Source: Nocardioides albus
Lineage (GTDB): Bacteria > Actinomycetota > Actinomycetes > Propionibacteriales > Nocardioidaceae
NCBI RefSeq assembly: GCF_014648255.1
Contig: NZ_BMQT01000002.1
Span: 434,001 to 498,000 of the forward strand
DNA: 64,000 nucleotides
Reading direction: 5' to 3'
The notes under the pieces are model-generated. The model made no database searches, was not told the origin of the DNA, and saw only the letters and a program-made list of their open reading frames with translations. The first letter of the stretch is position 1, and the number at the start of each line of letters is the position of its first letter. This document shows, one piece after another, positions 10,382-51,085 of this stretch. A program made the position numbers and the translations under genes.

Positions 10382-10500
10382 GGTCGAGCCGCCGGAGCCG
10401 CTAGGCGGAGGCGTGTCGAGACCAACACGGTCCCATCGGCGCTCGATGGGGCTGTGTTGGTCGACACGCTCGGCCGCAGGCGGCCTCGCGGCTCGACCAG
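10382..10500. repeat. Long imperfect hairpin between convergent genes, carrying a dispersed 49-bp repeat
   Basis: The gap between the transporter and the sigma-factor gene folds on itself: ggtcgagccgc pairs with gcggctcgacc, and gtgtcgagaccaacac with gtgttggtcgacac. It can act as a bidirectional terminator. Its left half (10382-10430) recurs as an exact 49-bp reverse complement at 50890-50938, so it is also a dispersed REP-like repeat of this genome. Confidence 0.75.
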
Positions 10501-20863: not shown

Positions 20864-21093
20864 CGGTGGTCGAGCTTTTCCGTCCCGGTTTGGTCTCGGG
20901 AAGCCTCGCGGAAGTGACTGTTGCTGGACTCGGTGTTCGCCGCCGACCCTCGTTCAATTGTTTCTCGATCGCGCACCGCGTCAAGGACGGGCTTCGCCCG
21001 CCGCTTCGCGGTGGCCTGCGGCCATCCTTGACCCGGCACCCGATCGAGAAAGATTTCGCCTGTATCGGGTCGGCGGCGGGGTTTGGCGCAGCG
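20864..21093 (-). repeat. Left inverted copy of the HNH-unit repeat (REP-like end, core hairpin, flank)
   Basis: From the outside in: a REP-like end (cggtggtcgagctt, 20864-20877), gccgccgaccctc (20939-20951), the core hairpin (20961-21053: tctcgat and gtcaagga facing tccttgac and atcgaga), then an inner flank ending ggcgcagcg (21085-21093). All four parts recur in reverse order and orientation at 23011-23230. Together they form imperfect terminal inverted repeats around the HNH gene. Confidence 0.75.
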
Positions 21094-21556
21094 GACTCAG
21101 TTCGGCACGGGCTTGAGAGCCGTGGCCGGCGTGTTGCTGCTGGGCGAGGGGCCGGGTCGCTGGTGCCTACGCCAGTGGGCGAGACCTTGTGAATCGCTCA
21201 CAAGGCTGCCTGAACCGGCGACGAGCCGCAGGGCGGCGGTTCTCCACTCCTCCACACTGACGCCCACCCCCACGGAGTTTTCCCACCCTCCGGAGCGTGG
21301 GGAAGCTCCGTGAGCGTGGGGAAAGATCTGCACGCGTGGGAAAGTCCGCCAGGTGGGGACATCAGGCTGTGCGGGCGGCGCGAGTCCGCCCCTGCTCTGC
21401 GAGCGGCATCGGCGAGGGTCTGAACCATTGACGCGATGCCACCGAGGCCACCTCGAGAGCCCAAGTGAGCCGTCCTGGCCCGGGGCAGGCGTAAGTGCCC
21501 GCGCATAGGCGGGGTCTTGGCGCGATGCCGTGGCGGGGTGGTCTCGGCTTGCCGGT
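21094..21556. other. 463-bp non-coding stretch inside the HNH unit with phased GTGGG repeats
   Basis: No convincing gene is visible. Three direct copies of GCGTGGG(G)AA begin at 21295, 21314 and 21334, with a related GGTGGGGAC at 21352; spacing is 18-20 bp, close to two helical turns. The rest shows only short inverted repeats such as cttgtgaatcgctcacaag near 21182. Confidence 0.5.
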
Positions 21557-22819
21557 TTAGGGCCGGCGGGTGAACCGGACGGTGCCGTCGGGCAACCGCT
21601 CATGGACATAGGCAGGGTTGTGCGCCAGACGGTGATGATGCGGACACAACAGGACCCCGTCCTTCAGGTCCGTTCTTCCGCCGGCTGCCCATGGTTCTAG
21701 ATGGTGGGCGTCGCACCATTCCGGTGGCATGTCACACCCTTCGGCTTGGCAGCACTTCTGCTGGAGTCGGAGTGCTTTGCGCTGGATAGGCACGAAGAAC
21801 CTGCTGCCTCGACCGACATCGAGGACCTCACTGTCACCACCCAACACCCACGGGATGATGGTGGCGTTGCACGCCATTCTGCGGGCTTCGGCGGCGGTGA
21901 TGGTGGTGCCGTTGGTCTCGTCGTAACCGAGGGTCGCGGTGCCGAGATCTTTGCGGAGCTCCTCAAGCGAGATCACGACATTCACGACCGTGGCGTCGCC
22001 ACCGTGACGGGGCAGCGCAGTCGGGTCGATGGTCTCGATCAGCCGGGCGAAGCCCTGACCCATCATCCGCTCCCACGGCGGCAACGGCGCACCCTTGTCC
22101 ACCAGTCGCTGCTTACGCGGCTGGGCCCAGGCTTCGACCTGCTTCTTGAACCGCATTCCGATCGATGTCGGGAGAACACCGTCGAAGCCGATGGTGCCGT
22201 CGTGGTTGTCCCACACCCGCAGCGCGGTCTTCTGCTGGGCCCGTTCTTCTTCAGCGAGGAGGGCTTTGGCTTCGGCTTCGTCGAACCGATCGGGGTCGAT
22301 CGCAGTCAGGACCCGTTTACCGGCGTTGTGGAGTTCTTTGGCGGTGGCCTGGGTGGCGTAGTCGACCAGCAGCTTCCCAGCGAGGACCAGGTCCTCACCG
22401 GTGGTGACCGGGTCGGCCTCGATCTTGTCGAGTGTCTCGGTGATCACCCGAGCCTTCGCCTCAGAGACGACACCGGCAGTGAGGCCGGCGGCGACCAACT
22501 CGTACTTCGCCACCGCACGGGCGAGCTTGATCTGCGAACGAGCCGCACCTTTGTCGACGAGCAGCTCGGCCCGCATCCACGCCGAGGCGTCTTTGTCGCC
22601 GGTCTCTGCGGCGATGTCACCCGAAACGGCCAGCACCCGCAGCGTCAACGCCGTCTGTTGGGCTTGGAGCTTCTCCACCCGGGCCAGGTAGTCCTTCTTC
22701 TGACTGGTGCGCCAATAGGTCGGGTCCATCGCGAGCAGCTGCTCGAGGGAGGTTTCGATGGCAGCAAGAGCCACCTCAAGAACGTCTCCAGGACTGGTGC
22801 CCCAGTGGTCGATGCTCAT
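21557..22819 (-). CDS. DUF222/HNH endonuclease (13E12 repeat family), copy 1
   Basis: The 420-residue protein has an N-terminal helical DUF222 domain (about 1-330) and a C-terminal HNH nuclease domain. The HNH motif is complete: CCQAEGCDMPPEWCDAHH, then GGRTDL, then CPHHHRLAH, with paired Cys for a zinc and the HH/H catalytic positions. Such genes are multicopy in actinobacteria and their role is unproven. A GGAGGAGA site precedes the ATG. It is highly similar over its whole length to the copy at 49176-50450. Uniquely here it is enclosed by inverted repeats. Domestic use or homing-type mobility are both open. Confidence 0.92.
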   Translation of the reverse strand: MSIDHWGTSPGDVLEVALAAIETSLEQLLAMDPTYWRTSQKKDYLARVEKLQAQQTALTLRVLAVSGDIAAETGDKDASAWMRAELLVDKGAARSQIKLARAVAKYELVAAGLTAGVVSEAKARVITETLDKIEADPVTTGEDLVLAGKLLVDYATQATAKELHNAGKRVLTAIDPDRFDEAEAKALLAEEERAQQKTALRVWDNHDGTIGFDGVLPTSIGMRFKKQVEAWAQPRKQRLVDKGAPLPPWERMMGQGFARLIETIDPTALPRHGGDATVVNVVISLEELRKDLGTATLGYDETNGTTITAAEARRMACNATIIPWVLGGDSEVLDVGRGSRFFVPIQRKALRLQQKCCQAEGCDMPPEWCDAHHLEPWAAGGRTDLKDGVLLCPHHHRLAHNPAYVHERLPDGTVRFTRRP

Positions 22820-22942
22820 TGCTGTCTCCTCCCTTCAAAGGCGTGTCGTAGTGCCTCCGATTCTATGCCAACCGAGCCTTCTCGAAAACCTATTTGTGCA
22901 GGTCAAACCGACTGTTCGCGGTGAGTGAACGGCCTCAAACCT

Positions 22943-23277
22943 GTGGATGGTAAGTGGCCCGAAGGGCCACCCTCGCACCCCACGCGCCCCACCGTTTCGA
23001 AGCATGATTTCGCTGCGCCACACCCGGGCCGCCGCCCCGATAGCCAGCCAAATCTTTTCTCGACATGGTCCGGTGTCAAGGATCGCCGAAGGCGACCGGC
23101 GTAGCCGGCGCCCGGAGGGCGTCCTTGACTCCGGGGCAGGTCGAGAAGACCCTCGAAGGAGGGTCGGCGGCCCCGGCCGGCGTTCGGGTGGGAGGTTCCG
23201 GTAGGGAGGTCTCGACAAGCTCGACCACCGGGGGCTGGTCGTCCAGGCAGGGAGGTCTCGACAAGCTCGACCACCGG
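22943..23277 (+). repeat. Right copy of the HNH-unit repeat, with GTGGCCC hairpin and two REP-like ends
   Basis: Beginning 120 bp upstream of HNH copy 1, this contains a hairpin (gtggccc-gaa-gggccac, 22954-22970), the flank (23011-23054), the core hairpin (23055-23149) and two direct 29-bp REP-like copies (23203-23231 and 23249-23277) ending aagctcgaccaccgg. The hairpin, flank and core recur in the same order and orientation upstream of HNH copy 2 (50570-50866). The flank, core and REP end also recur inverted at 20864-21093. Confidence 0.8.
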
Positions 23278-23287
23278 ATCTCCAGAT

Positions 23288-23683
23288 TCACCCGAAGTCG
23301 ATGAGCCGCCCATCCTCGTGCATGACACACCCTCGCCCGATCCAGGCAACCGCATGCTCCTTGTCCCCGACCGCGATGTAGGAGTAGCTGGGCGGAACCC
23401 AGACGAGGTCGTAGTCGACGCCGCCCAGCGCCCGCTCGGTAGGGCGAACCGCGTCGCCGGAGGGGTCGAGGGTGCGTACCGCCTGCTCGACGGAGTCGAA
23501 GTACCTTCGACCGTTCTCGGAGAGCTCCTTCGCGCACCAGGCACACGTGCCGAGCGCCTCGATCTGTGCGGAGGTGGCGGGGACCGGGGCGTCCAGACCG
23601 AGAAGCTGGGGGCAGGCCCGGACGTGCAGGAGACGGCCGCGCGCATGCGCCACGAAGAGGGTCTCGGGAGTCTCGGAGGGCAT
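23288..23683 (-). CDS. Small hypothetical protein with CxxC motif
   Basis: The 131-residue protein has no family I recognise. It has HVRACPQLLG near residue 24 and TCAWCAKEL near residue 50; one Cys plus a CxxC, with nearby His, could bind a metal. The C-terminal half (DYDLVWVPPSYSYIAVGDKEHAVAWIGRG) looks like a compact beta-rich fold. Codon third positions are strongly G/C, as in real genes here. It sits between the right end of the HNH unit and the homogentisate genes and is divergent from the latter. A cytoplasmic protein is likely, since there is no signal peptide. Confidence 0.65.
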   Translation of the reverse strand: MPSETPETLFVAHARGRLLHVRACPQLLGLDAPVPATSAQIEALGTCAWCAKELSENGRRYFDSVEQAVRTLDPSGDAVRPTERALGGVDYDLVWVPPSYSYIAVGDKEHAVAWIGRGCVMHEDGRLIDFG

Positions 23684-47756: not shown

Positions 47757-49148
47757 ATGAGCTATCGACGGCTGGGCCCGGCCGGACTGCTGGTCGCGGG
47801 GCTCGCCCTGATCGGACTGGGCGTCGTCGGCCCGCCGGCATCCGACGGCGGGCTCCGGATCCCGCCCGGCGTGCCGATTCTGCTGGTCGGCGCGGCGGCC
47901 GCCTCGTGGTTGCGCGGCACTGCCGGTGCCATCCTCGGGCTGGCCGCGGTGGCCGTGGTGACGGTCGCCTCCGTCGGCGCCGGCATCGGGCCGGATCTGA
48001 TCGGTGACCGCGGACTGCCGGTCACCGCCGCGCGTTGGGTCCAGGTGGCCGGGCTGGTGGTTGCGGCGTACGCCTTGGGTCGACGGGTCGCGGCGCGTCC
48101 CTCTCCCGCGGGGACGCCAGGTGGACGCCGTCGGGGTCGGGGTCGCGTGCTCCAGATCGCAGGCCTGCTGGTGCTGTGCGGGGTCGGGGCCGAGCTGCTG
48201 GCAGCGTACGGGGACAGCACGGGCGACCCCGGTGGCATCACGTTCGCCCTGGTCTTCTTCGGCGCCCTCTACGGAGCGCCGGCGTTGCTCGCCCGGGAGC
48301 TGGTCCGCCGTCTGGGCTGGGGCTGGCCGAGCCTGCTGCTGATCTTCGCGGCTCTGGGTACGGCCCAGGCGGGTCTCATCGACCAATCTCTGTTCAGCAC
48401 CGACTACGGCGGGTACGACGGGTGGGAGGAGAACCGGGAGCCGACCCTGGTCCCGTCTCTGGGACTCAGCGGCTACAACGCCTACTCCTTCATCATCGGC
48501 CACGTGATCTACAGCTTCGCCGCGCCGGTGGCGCTGGCCGAGGCGTGGTCGCCCGCCCGGGCCAGGAAGCCCTGGCTCGGCCCGATCGGCACGGTCCTGG
48601 CCGTGGTCGCCTACGCGGTCGCCGCAACCCTGATCGTGACCGACCCCGAGTCACGCTCAGGAACCCCGGCTCAGCTCATCGTCACCGTCGGCGTGATCGG
48701 CGCGATGCTGCTCGGTGCCGCGCTGATCGGCAGTCGGCGACGACCGGGCCACGCTCCGGCCGGCGCGCGAGACCTCGCGATCTGGCAGGTCCTCGGTGTC
48801 TCCCTGATCTTCGCGACGGTTCCCGATCTGCTGCCCCCGACCTGGCTGGGCGTCGTGCTGGCAGCGACGACCACAGCCACGCTCGGGATCCTCATCGCCC
48901 TGGCCTCGCGGAGGAGTGCATGGACGATCCGGCACACCGCAGCAGTCGGCGCCGCGTACCTCCTCGAGCGGGGTCTGCTGGCCTTCACCTACTTCCCCCT
49001 CATCGGCGACGTCGCGCCAGGACCGAAGTACGCCCACAACGTGATCATGCTCCTGATCGTCGTGCTCGCCACCTGGGTCGCACTGCGCAAGCGCAGCGGC
49101 GAACGGGCCGAAGGCGCGGTCAAGACGCCCAGCTCTGCTGGGAGCTAG
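47757..49148 (+). CDS. Unknown multi-pass membrane protein
   Basis: The 463-residue protein has about twelve hydrophobic segments spread along its whole length, with two basic loops (RRVAARPSPAGTPGGRRRGRG and ALIGSRRRPGHAPAGARD). A polar external loop of about 40 residues (TDYGGYDGWEENREPTLVPS) is rich in Tyr, Asp and Glu. I do not recognise a family. It stands alone, 78 bp after the DoxX gene, and its stop is 27 bp from the convergent HNH copy 2. Confidence 0.78.
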   Translation: MSYRRLGPAGLLVAGLALIGLGVVGPPASDGGLRIPPGVPILLVGAAAASWLRGTAGAILGLAAVAVVTVASVGAGIGPDLIGDRGLPVTAARWVQVAGLVVAAYALGRRVAARPSPAGTPGGRRRGRGRVLQIAGLLVLCGVGAELLAAYGDSTGDPGGITFALVFFGALYGAPALLARELVRRLGWGWPSLLLIFAALGTAQAGLIDQSLFSTDYGGYDGWEENREPTLVPSLGLSGYNAYSFIIGHVIYSFAAPVALAEAWSPARARKPWLGPIGTVLAVVAYAVAATLIVTDPESRSGTPAQLIVTVGVIGAMLLGAALIGSRRRPGHAPAGARDLAIWQVLGVSLIFATVPDLLPPTWLGVVLAATTTATLGILIALASRRSAWTIRHTAAVGAAYLLERGLLAFTYFPLIGDVAPGPKYAHNVIMLLIVVLATWVALRKRSGERAEGAVKTPSSAGS

Positions 49149-49175: not shown

Positions 49176-50450
49176 TCAGGGGCGGCGGGTGAACCGGATG
49201 GTGCCGTCGGGCAACCGCTCATGCGTGTATCCGGGGGCATGCGCGAGCCGGTGATGATGAGGGCACAGCAGGACCCCGTCGTTCAGGTCTGTTCTTCCGC
49301 CGGCGGCCCAGGGTTTGAGGTGGTGCGCATCGCACCACTCTGGTGGCATGTCGCAGCCTTCGGCTTGGCAGCACTTCTGCTGTAGTCGGAGTGCTTTGCG
49401 TTGGATGGGTTGGAAGAACCTGCTTTCCCGGCCGGCGTCGAGGACCACGCTGTCACCGCCGAGGACCCAGGGGATGATGGTGGCGTTGCACGCCATCCGA
49501 CGGGCCTCGGCTGCAGTGATGGTGGTGCCGTTGGTCTCGTCGAACCCGAGTGTCGCGGTGCCGAGCTCGTTGCGGAGGTCAGCGAGGGAGATCACGACGT
49601 TGACCACGGTCGCGTCGCCGCCGTGACGGGGCAGTGTGGTGGGGTCGATGGTCTCGATCAGCCGGGCGAACCCTTGCCCCGTGAGCCGTTCCCACGGAGG
49701 CAGCGGAACACCCTTCTCCACCAGCCGCTGCTTGCGGGGCTGGGCCCACGCCTCGACCAGGGTCTTGAACCGCATCCCGATCGCGGTCGGCAGCACACCG
49801 TCGAACCCGATCGTCCCGTTACCGTTGTCCCAGACCCGTAGCGCGGTCTTCTGCCGGGCACGTTCTTCCTCGGCCAGGAGGGCTTTGGCCTCGGCCTCTT
49901 CGAACCGGACAGGGTCGACCTCGACCAGGATCCGTTTGCCCACGATCCGCAGCTCGTTGGCGGTCATCTGGGTGGCGTACTCGACCAGCAGCTTCTCCGC
50001 CAGGACCAGGTCCTCGCCGGTGGCGATGGGATCGGTCTTGATCTTGTCGAGCGCACGAGTGATGACCCGGGCCTTGTCCTGGGAGACGACACCCTCAGCC
50101 AAGCCGGCAGCGACCAGCTCATACCGAGCCACGGTGGTAGCGAGCTTGATCTGGGCGCGGGCGGCACCTTTGTCGACAACCAGCTCGGCCCGCATCCAGG
50201 CCGAGGCGTCCTTGTCACCGGTCTCAGCAGCAATGTCACCCGAGGAAGCCAGGACCCGCAGCCTCAACGCGGCCTGCTGGGCTTGGAGTTTCTCGACCCG
50301 GGCCAGGAAGTCCTTCTTCTGGCTGGTGCGCCAATAGTCCGGGTCCATCGCAAGCAACCCAGCAAGAGAGGTCTCGATGGCGTCAAGAGCCGCTCCGATC
50401 GCATCAGCGGGGTTGGTGCCCCAGTGGTCGATGCTGCCGTCCAGACTCAT
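49176..50450 (-). CDS. DUF222/HNH endonuclease (13E12 repeat family), copy 2
   Basis: The 424-residue protein is closely similar over its full length to copy 1 at 21557-22819, including the complete HNH motif (EGCDMPPEWCDAHHLKPW, GGRTDLNDG, CPHHHRLAH). Differences are scattered single residues, so both genes look maintained rather than decaying. I prefer the ATG at 50450 behind GGGAGGG; a GTG at 50456 adds two residues. The upstream hairpin, flank and core repeat of copy 1 are present here too, but no inverted partner is found on the 3' side, where a membrane-protein gene ends 27 bp away. Confidence 0.92.
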   Translation of the reverse strand: MSLDGSIDHWGTNPADAIGAALDAIETSLAGLLAMDPDYWRTSQKKDFLARVEKLQAQQAALRLRVLASSGDIAAETGDKDASAWMRAELVVDKGAARAQIKLATTVARYELVAAGLAEGVVSQDKARVITRALDKIKTDPIATGEDLVLAEKLLVEYATQMTANELRIVGKRILVEVDPVRFEEAEAKALLAEEERARQKTALRVWDNGNGTIGFDGVLPTAIGMRFKTLVEAWAQPRKQRLVEKGVPLPPWERLTGQGFARLIETIDPTTLPRHGGDATVVNVVISLADLRNELGTATLGFDETNGTTITAAEARRMACNATIIPWVLGGDSVVLDAGRESRFFQPIQRKALRLQQKCCQAEGCDMPPEWCDAHHLKPWAAGGRTDLNDGVLLCPHHHRLAHAPGYTHERLPDGTIRFTRRP

Positions 50451-50569
50451 CGCCACCCTCCCTTCCGAGTGTTCGAAGGCGTGTCGTGATGGGTCTGATT
50501 CTACCCTTCATAAACCCGCGAATCCATCTATTTCCCCAGGTCAAACACGTTTCTCGTGGTTAGCGAACG

Positions 50570-50938
50570 AGCATCAGACCTGTGGACGCTAAGTGGCCCG
50601 AAGGGCCACCCTCCACCCCCACGACAGCACCTTCCGAAGCATGATTCCGCTGCGCCACACCCGGGCCGCCGCCCCGATAGCCAGCCAAATATTTTCTCGA
50701 CGGGCCCCGGTGTCAAGGACCGCGGTAGCGGCCGGCGAAGCCGGCGGCCGAAGGCCGTCCTTGACTCCGGGGTTCGTCGAGAAGACCGTAGAACTCGGGT
50801 CGGCGGCCCCGCTGGCCGAAGAAGAAACCCTTCCGGCAGGGAGGGGTCGACAAGCTCGACCACCGGTGGCCAGACGATCCGGCAGGGAACCGTGTTGGTC
50901 TCGACACGCCTCCGCCTAGCGGCTCCGGCGGCTCGACC
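50570..50938 (-). repeat. HNH-unit repeat upstream of copy 2, with REP-like and dispersed 49-bp repeats
   Basis: In the same order as at 22943-23277: gtggccc-gaa-gggccac hairpin (50593-50609), flank (about 50650-50691, nearly identical to 23011-23054), core hairpin (50692-50785), a REP-like aagctcgaccaccgg end (50838-50866), then an exact 49-bp reverse complement of 10382-10430 at 50890-50938. Conservation of these non-coding parts between the two units is as high as that of the coding region. Confidence 0.8.
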
Positions 50939-50953
50939 AGCGGGGCAAAGGGT

Positions 50954-51053
50954 CTCGACCAGCGGGGGACGGAACAGGCTCGACCAACGGGGGACGGAAC
51001 AGGCTCGACCAACGGGGGACGGAACAGGCTCGACCAACGGGGGACGGAACAAG
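50954..51053. repeat. Four tandem 25-bp repeats
   Basis: The unit ctcgaccaacgggggacggaacagg, shown here as ctcgaccaacggggg plus acggaacagg, is repeated four times with one or two base changes, followed by a 7-9 base partial copy to 51062. It lies between HNH copy 2 and the NhaA gene. Each unit contains the gctcgacca word of the neighbouring REP-like repeats, so it probably grew by local duplication. Confidence 0.88.
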
Positions 51054-51085
51054 CTCGACCAGCGAAACAAGCCGACACCGCCCCC

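Follow-up and report, generated by a model that had tools for sequence, protein, structure and literature searches.

The inverted repeats that flank a DUF222/HNH gene in the window (the whole stretch of 64,000 nucleotides analysed here) raise the question of whether gene and repeats form a single mobile unit and, if so, which enzyme could move it. The gene lies at 21557-22819 on the minus strand and encodes a subfamily C protein of 420 aa, which matched PF02720 with 55.2 bits (cut-off 24.4 bits) and the HNH profile PF01844 with 19.7 bits, just below its cut-off of 21.4 bits. The HNH residues, including H372, H373 and H396, are invariant among 39 related proteins and, together with the PF02720 match above the cut-off, qualify the protein as a member of the DUF222/HNH (13E12) family.

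An earlier note on this DNA had described four nested parts in mirror order around the gene, and all four were present where it had placed them. From the outside inwards these are a REP-like pair (20864-20880 and 23214-23230, 94% complementary), a GCCGCCGACCCTC pair (20939-20955 and 23155-23171, 94% complementary), the GTCAAGGA..TCCTTGAC cores (20980-21032 and 23075-23129) and a GGCGCAGCG flank pair (21079-21099 and 23005-23025, 86% complementary). The arrangement was above chance both in the number of GTCAAGGA motifs, with 10 occurrences in the window vs. 1.36 expected and none of 100 shuffles reaching that number, and in DNA folding. Each module consists of a long stem with three small hairpins on top. 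In the 5' end module (23005-23180, minus strand; z -6.2), found at an equivalent position in 31 of 35 close relatives, the core hairpin at 23075-23129 carries the three small hairpins and the outer stem includes TCTCGA and GCCGCCGACC parts. The inverted 3' end module (20930-21100, plus strand; z -4.5), with its core hairpin at 20980-21032, is common to the related genome G039. None of 200 shuffles was equally stable for either module.

At the outer edge of the 3' end, the REP-like piece at 20864-20880 (plus strand) is 94% complementary to the REPs on the right. There, direct reading revealed two short REPs, GGTGGTCGAGCTTGTCGAGACC, at 23208-23229 and 23254-23275 within an outer 5' end at 23207-23277 (minus strand). 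Therefore, the right-hand parts are indeed found up to 23230, as in the note, but on its 5' side the unit extends to about 23277. Its outer edge is some 12 bp behind the stop codon of a neighbour at 23288-23683.

A second unit, which the note does not list, is present in the window at about 49176-51070. Its intact subfamily C gene (49176-50456, minus strand; 426 aa) encodes a protein 82-84% identical to the first one over most of its length and is separated by 28 bp from the stop codon of a convergent neighbour (47757-49148). The unit includes a 5' core hairpin (50712-50765), an exact copy of the 42-base outermost 5' piece, termed REP42 here (50897-50938), and a tandem array with a repeat of about CGACCAACGGGGGACGGAACAGGCT, identified by direct reading (50939-51070), all on the minus strand, and it has no 3' hairpin. 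When this second protein was searched against Pfam, HNH was weak and DUF222 was not reported; as the DUF222 model is silent on a protein more than 80% identical to one that it matches, counts of the DUF222 family are too low. In the host genome, which its named relatives place in Nocardioides, profile searches yielded 25 PF02720 matches, and at least four C-type genes more exist (C2:398758-400470, C10:200658-202314, the second window gene and one near C6:256 kb). Among the 25 genes, the 22 that could be read fully, the partial L038-L040 being excluded, fall into subfamilies A (8), B (6), C (4) and D (4), with no BLASTP match between A and the others at 1e-5.

These genes are under purifying selection, with dN/dS values between paralogues of 0.14 (A), 0.19 (B) and 0.12 (C), and recombination was detected among A and among B copies, the two subfamilies covered, by our own PHI-like test (0 of 1000 permutations each). 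The predicted structure of the protein (mean pLDDT 79.3, pTM 0.48) shows a helical DUF222 part and an HNH end. Foldseek comparison of this model with the PDB gave nothing at E 0.001 or better; the best matches included HNH enzymes, such as McrA (6ghc, E 0.06) and an HNH nicking enzyme (4h9d, probability 0.96, E 0.3), so that the HNH end weakly resembles solved nucleases while the helical DUF222 part has no convincing relative in the PDB. No family was assigned by the PADLOC anti-phage models to the two proteins tested, and NCBIfam gave no match for the window proteins. Relatives of the window protein were found in 6 of 72,556 plasmid records and 1 of 50,697 phage records (E 1e-5), all below 60% identity.

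The linkage between hairpin and gene was analysed over the host genome, where the exact core hairpin occurs 15 times. Thirteen of these have a PF02720 match no more than 1 kb away, a territory that makes up 1.3% of the genome (p about 2e-23, a value that presumes independence, which paralogues do not have), and a fourteenth adjoins the second window gene missed by Pfam, so that 14 of 15 are linked to a gene. The fifteenth belongs to a complete lone module of the 3' type (L008:1455-1610) in a 3-kb locus with no DUF222 gene, a solo end or remnant. In G039, 22 of 27 hairpins lie within 500 bp, and all 27 within 2.2 kb, of a DUF222/HNH gene; of the five farther ones, four are 3' modules of units interrupted by an IS110-type element and the fifth lies 5' of its gene. 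This is the opposite of the pattern, core hairpins mostly without HNH genes, that the earlier note had named as speaking against its proposal, and together with the absence of the whole unit from the equivalent site in G015 (see below) it supports the view that the inverted modules and the gene are one unit. The REP part does also spread on its own, with at least nine inverted doublets among the 30 REP loci read.

In 31 of 35 close loci (from the 42 named loci L071-L112), the hairpin was detected no more than 300 bp upstream of the gene, compared with 3 of 35 distant loci with an upstream GTCAAGGA hairpin (from the 38 loci L113-L150), counting in both sets those loci with at least 500 bp of upstream sequence. 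Thus, the core hairpin is a feature of the units of one clade and not of all DUF222 genes. Subfamily D genes carry neither REP42 nor the core hairpin; the D-type genes L115, L121, L131, L113 and L145 have in common about 500 conserved upstream bases, from which the hairpin is absent. Locus L019 has an intact gene and lacks the 5' hairpin.

A unit with both ends is not the general case. Among loci with enough sequence, 15 of the 41 close ones and 3 of the 37 distant ones have a hairpin less than about 700 bp 3' of the gene. The 3' module is missing from all eight A copies and several C copies and was found in most B copies; homology among A copies ends at the stop codon (8 of 8), and among B copies just beyond the inverted 3' module. 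Fixed inverted ends in all copies, as an IS or transposon would have, are therefore not the case, and the regular double ends proposed earlier did not hold, the second window copy being a further example without a 3' hairpin. The two cores of the window unit also differ in type, the left one being similar to the 5' ends of subfamily A and the right one to those of B and C; in L072, L100 and L104, too, a core of the A 5'-end type was found on the 3' side of a B-type gene. The 3' module of the window unit may be the remnant of a separate A-type unit.

Base changes in the core were compared among 51 distinct cores from the host and its relatives. In this alignment, 95.3% of the cells pair vs. 91.5% in shuffles, 29 cells had changed on both sides vs. 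6.1 in shuffles, and pairing was lost when the partner was slid along. Two of five covariation measures, pairs with both-side change and further pair types, were not above the shuffles (38 of 500 and 251 of 500, respectively). The first two hairpin loops have a free middle base and read T-N-C on one strand, hence G-N-A on its complement. UNCG RNA tetraloops were considered and rejected, as the pairing register gives TNC loops with GNA opposite. The C-GNA-G triloop is stable in DNA, and the GNA loops of the core fit it. Judged from the aligned sequences, the paired changes and the loops speak for a folded single strand or a cruciform. No match to the unit was found in Rfam.

REP42 occurs at 63 places in the host genome, 45 of them exact. 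Seventeen copies are at most 1 kb away from a listed gene, every one upstream and on the same strand as the gene, and they are found at 17 of the 18 A, B and C genes; the eighteenth is the first window gene, with its two short REPs in the stead of REP42. Thirty of the 63 loci were read, with 18 showing a DUF222 gene or remnant (two beside one gene), 9 an inverted doublet, meaning an inverted REP42 partner within 120 bases, and 3 neither. A solo REP42 is found in the window itself at 10382-10423, without a DUF222 gene or a regular inverted partner. Outside REP42, the 5' edge of many copies is lengthened by locus-specific tandem units of about 19-26 bases. In the arrays of L026-L033 and L019, the units are uniform within a locus, and linker and length (19 to 26 bases) vary between loci, as if each array had grown independently. 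The array starts lie within 100 bp after a same-strand open frame of at least 100 codons in 12 of 18 cases, vs. a fraction of 0.274 for random positions.

Among the close loci, a tandem repeat was found 5' of the gene in 23 of 34 (about ten of the 23 being short hairpin-internal repeats and not REP arrays) and 3' in 14 of 34, with a background of 0.16; in the distant genes, a tandem repeat within 700 bp was present 5' in 12 of 33 and 3' in 8, with a fraction of 0.20 in background windows. In the N. luteus loci L100, L101, L104, L108 and L120, REPs are also found 3' of the gene. At the level of the genus, REP42 was detected in 7 of 59 genomes, namely in all six with a match to the DNA of the gene of at least 1.2 kb and in 1 of the 53 others, counts that are not independent because the genomes are related; the exception, G006, has five REP42 copies and no listed close gene.

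Two more distant Nocardioides have genome-specific repeats of their own in this place. In Soil805 (G061), a 32-base tandem unit of different sequence lies upstream of 6 of 10 genes, on the strand of the gene, among the 100 of 212 places listed; its core has 212 places in G061 (2 for a control), 2 in G000 and 3 in G039. N. islandensis (G062) has yet another REP, with 99 places and none in G000 or G061, which is upstream of 10 of 13 genes, always on the strand of the gene, and never in the first 1 kb downstream; of the three genes without it, two are fragments cut off by a contig end. In N. speluncae, a segment close to one end of a copy matches, inverted and over about 97 bases, a segment close to the other end of another copy. 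RAYT transposases are thought to mobilise REPs in other bacteria, and REPs are known mainly together with RAYTs. A search for the Y1 transposase family of RAYTs (PF01797) found no match in any of eight genomes (G000 and seven more), with a profile that gave matches in 5 of 14 control genomes.

Empty sites in relatives, which the note had suggested looking for, were found at two places. At the site of the window unit, G015 has both flanks, 90-91% identical, and between them 46 different bases where the window has approximately 2.4 kb; the site is filled in G052 and in G039, the latter with the same 3' module, and the contigs of G011 break there. At the L026 site, 20 bases in G052 replace approximately 1.8 kb. 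Neither of these clean empty sites contains a REP or array, and no target duplication was seen at either, the flanks being only about 77-92% identical. The L020 site in G011 retains end remnants, and the gene is gone. When ten sites of the 18 A, B and C units were queried, one was clean and empty, one held a remnant and five (L023, L026, L031, L032 and L033) were filled in G039, with 1.7-2.2 kb between the flanks; the remaining ones showed larger gaps, separate contigs, rearrangement or a single flank. These comparisons imply a slow turnover in which the whole unit appears or disappears at once, with gain and loss both fitting. The flanks of different copies are unrelated, with no single conserved recognition site of the kind expected for a homing endonuclease; homing into a fixed site, one reading of the note's homing-type unit, is not supported, given copies at many sites and the two clean empty sites without a REP. 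The A units L027 and L032 have similar downstream genes on their right flanks; the two copies may occupy corresponding positions next to duplicated genes, or the duplication may have included the units.

The interruptions in G039 correspond to an IS110-type element (PF01548, PF02371) of 1,354-1,355 bp, located for instance at L224:2070-3423 inside the HNH gene. It is inserted at one identical base of the gene in L224, L225, L227, L229 and L183, and seems to target the HNH gene. The possibility that the G039 units had spread together with this IS was discarded: the five copies of the element are 100% identical, whereas the preceding gene parts are 6-10% apart, so the insertion struck resident copies later.

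Taken together, the gene, the 5' hairpin and the REP occur in constant order and strand across copies, and REP doublets that lack the gene are dispersed. We regard it as somewhat probable that the DUF222/HNH gene, its hairpins and its REPs form a mobile unit working in a REP/RAYT-like manner, with the predicted HNH nuclease in the place of the Y1 transposase. The linkage counts, the constancy of strand, the repeats of other genomes, the empty sites, the paired changes, the dN/dS values and the recombination were counted in favour of this reading. Counted against it were the missing 3' modules, the lack of a readable target duplication at about 85-91% identity, the sites filled in G039, the low frequency of the hairpin (3 of 35) and of the array (12 of 33) in distant loci, G006, L019 and the two covariation measures. 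In such a unit, the protein would bind its own 5' end extruded as a hairpin, most likely through the strand with the C-GNA-G loops, or else the REP, and the predicted nuclease would nick or cut at the bound hairpin or REP. Through repair or copying, a REP doublet or the complete unit could then reach new intergenic positions, many of them directly behind a stop codon, and gene conversion among the copies would be a side effect. In units that have a 3' module, the two modules might serve as the inverted ends, and slippage, or repeated cutting and repair, would lengthen the tandem REP arrays at the 5' edge.

A rival reading is homing by gene conversion, in which the HNH protein cuts solo REPs or arrays and repair adds the gene, the REPs being earlier and spread by other means. 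The constant position of the gene on one side and strand of the REP and the locus-specific arrays at the 5' edge would both be expected from it. We consider it rather unlikely; it retains some chance because of the strong recombination among copies and because REP13E12 loci appear as gene-conversion hot spots in the available part of one report (PMC13061034). The two clean empty sites, free of REPs and arrays, argue against insertion into pre-existing REPs, and no other mobiliser of REPs was found within the Y1 family searched. Less probable still is that these are ordinary nuclease genes protected or regulated by hairpins and REPs acting as insulators or terminators, REPs being common behind stop codons. 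Strong stems could halt transcription, and the 12 of 18 arrays starting just past an open frame agree with such a role, but the proximity of REP and gene is far above chance and bound to the strand in three genomes, whole units are missing at two sites, the 3' modules are inverted and the gene of L019 is intact without a 5' hairpin.

The fixed 5' place of a structured module beside an HNH gene and the paired changes in its stem also recall RNA-guided enzymes, with the module transcribed, like that of IscB elements, into an RNA that serves as guide or scaffold. A subfamily A protein matched the IscB model weakly, with 27.6 bits vs. a cut-off of 175, and the same model gave no match for the window protein, so that IscB membership is not indicated. 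As, in addition, Rfam gave no match, no RuvC-like domain was reported, inverted copies of the module are also found 3' of many genes and the L019 gene is intact without its hairpin, we see very little chance of this explanation being correct.

Returning to the mobile unit, a broader proposal follows the same lines, namely that DUF222/HNH proteins form a second class of REP mobilisers, independent of the first, in which an HNH nuclease would recognise cross-shaped single-strand hairpins and REPs at the end of its own gene, would spread both the gene and REP doublets and would have co-evolved with lineage-specific REP families; we hold the arguments for and against this to be evenly balanced. 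In the literature, as far as its mostly open-access text was available, no link of REPs with DUF222/HNH genes was found, and PMC3733652 gave nothing on HNH or Actinobacteria. If the pairing is causal, the DUF222/HNH (13E12) family, multicopy and so far with no defined role, would gain one and these actinobacterial REPs a source, with a nuclease, a candidate substrate defined to the base and an action open to testing. REP-type repeats would then have originated alongside two or more unrelated nucleases, and the reported gene conversion of REP13E12 loci would be explained.

Several known systems share part of this layout. HNH homing endonuclease genes are nuclease genes that spread and are associated with gene conversion, and they sit in an intron, an intein or one fixed gene; the genes described here are likewise HNH genes that probably spread, with gene conversion, but their units are found at many unrelated sites, outside any intron, intein or single fixed gene. 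Hairpin ends, and short gene-free versions of them, are shared with IS200/IS605 elements and MITEs, going by the accessible portions of PMC6006769 and PMC3116915. Unlike IS200/IS605, the units here have no Y1 transposase, their 5' module and REP array are far larger, and no target or excision product is known. The REP13E12, or 13E12, DUF222/HNH genes of mycobacteria are described, in the available text of PMC13061034 and PMC10589994, with repeats and gene conversion and with a function called undefined. The genes described here resemble that family in PF02720, in being multicopy and in their repeats and gene conversion; the same portions of these two sources mention no REP or hairpin ends.

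The closest likeness is to REPs and REPINs with their RAYT (TnpA-REP), as presented in the portions of PMC3116915 and PMC8266576 at hand: both are chromosomal and have extragenic palindromes next to a gene, tandem clusters, pairings of repeat and gene that differ by lineage, and inverted doublets able to form a single hairpin. The differences are that the gene here encodes a DUF222/HNH protein and not a Y1 (HuH) enzyme, that it is multicopy and accompanied by a further large three-armed hairpin, and that cutting of the REP is here a prediction. The system is REP/RAYT-like by its layout, and not a member of that group by its enzyme.
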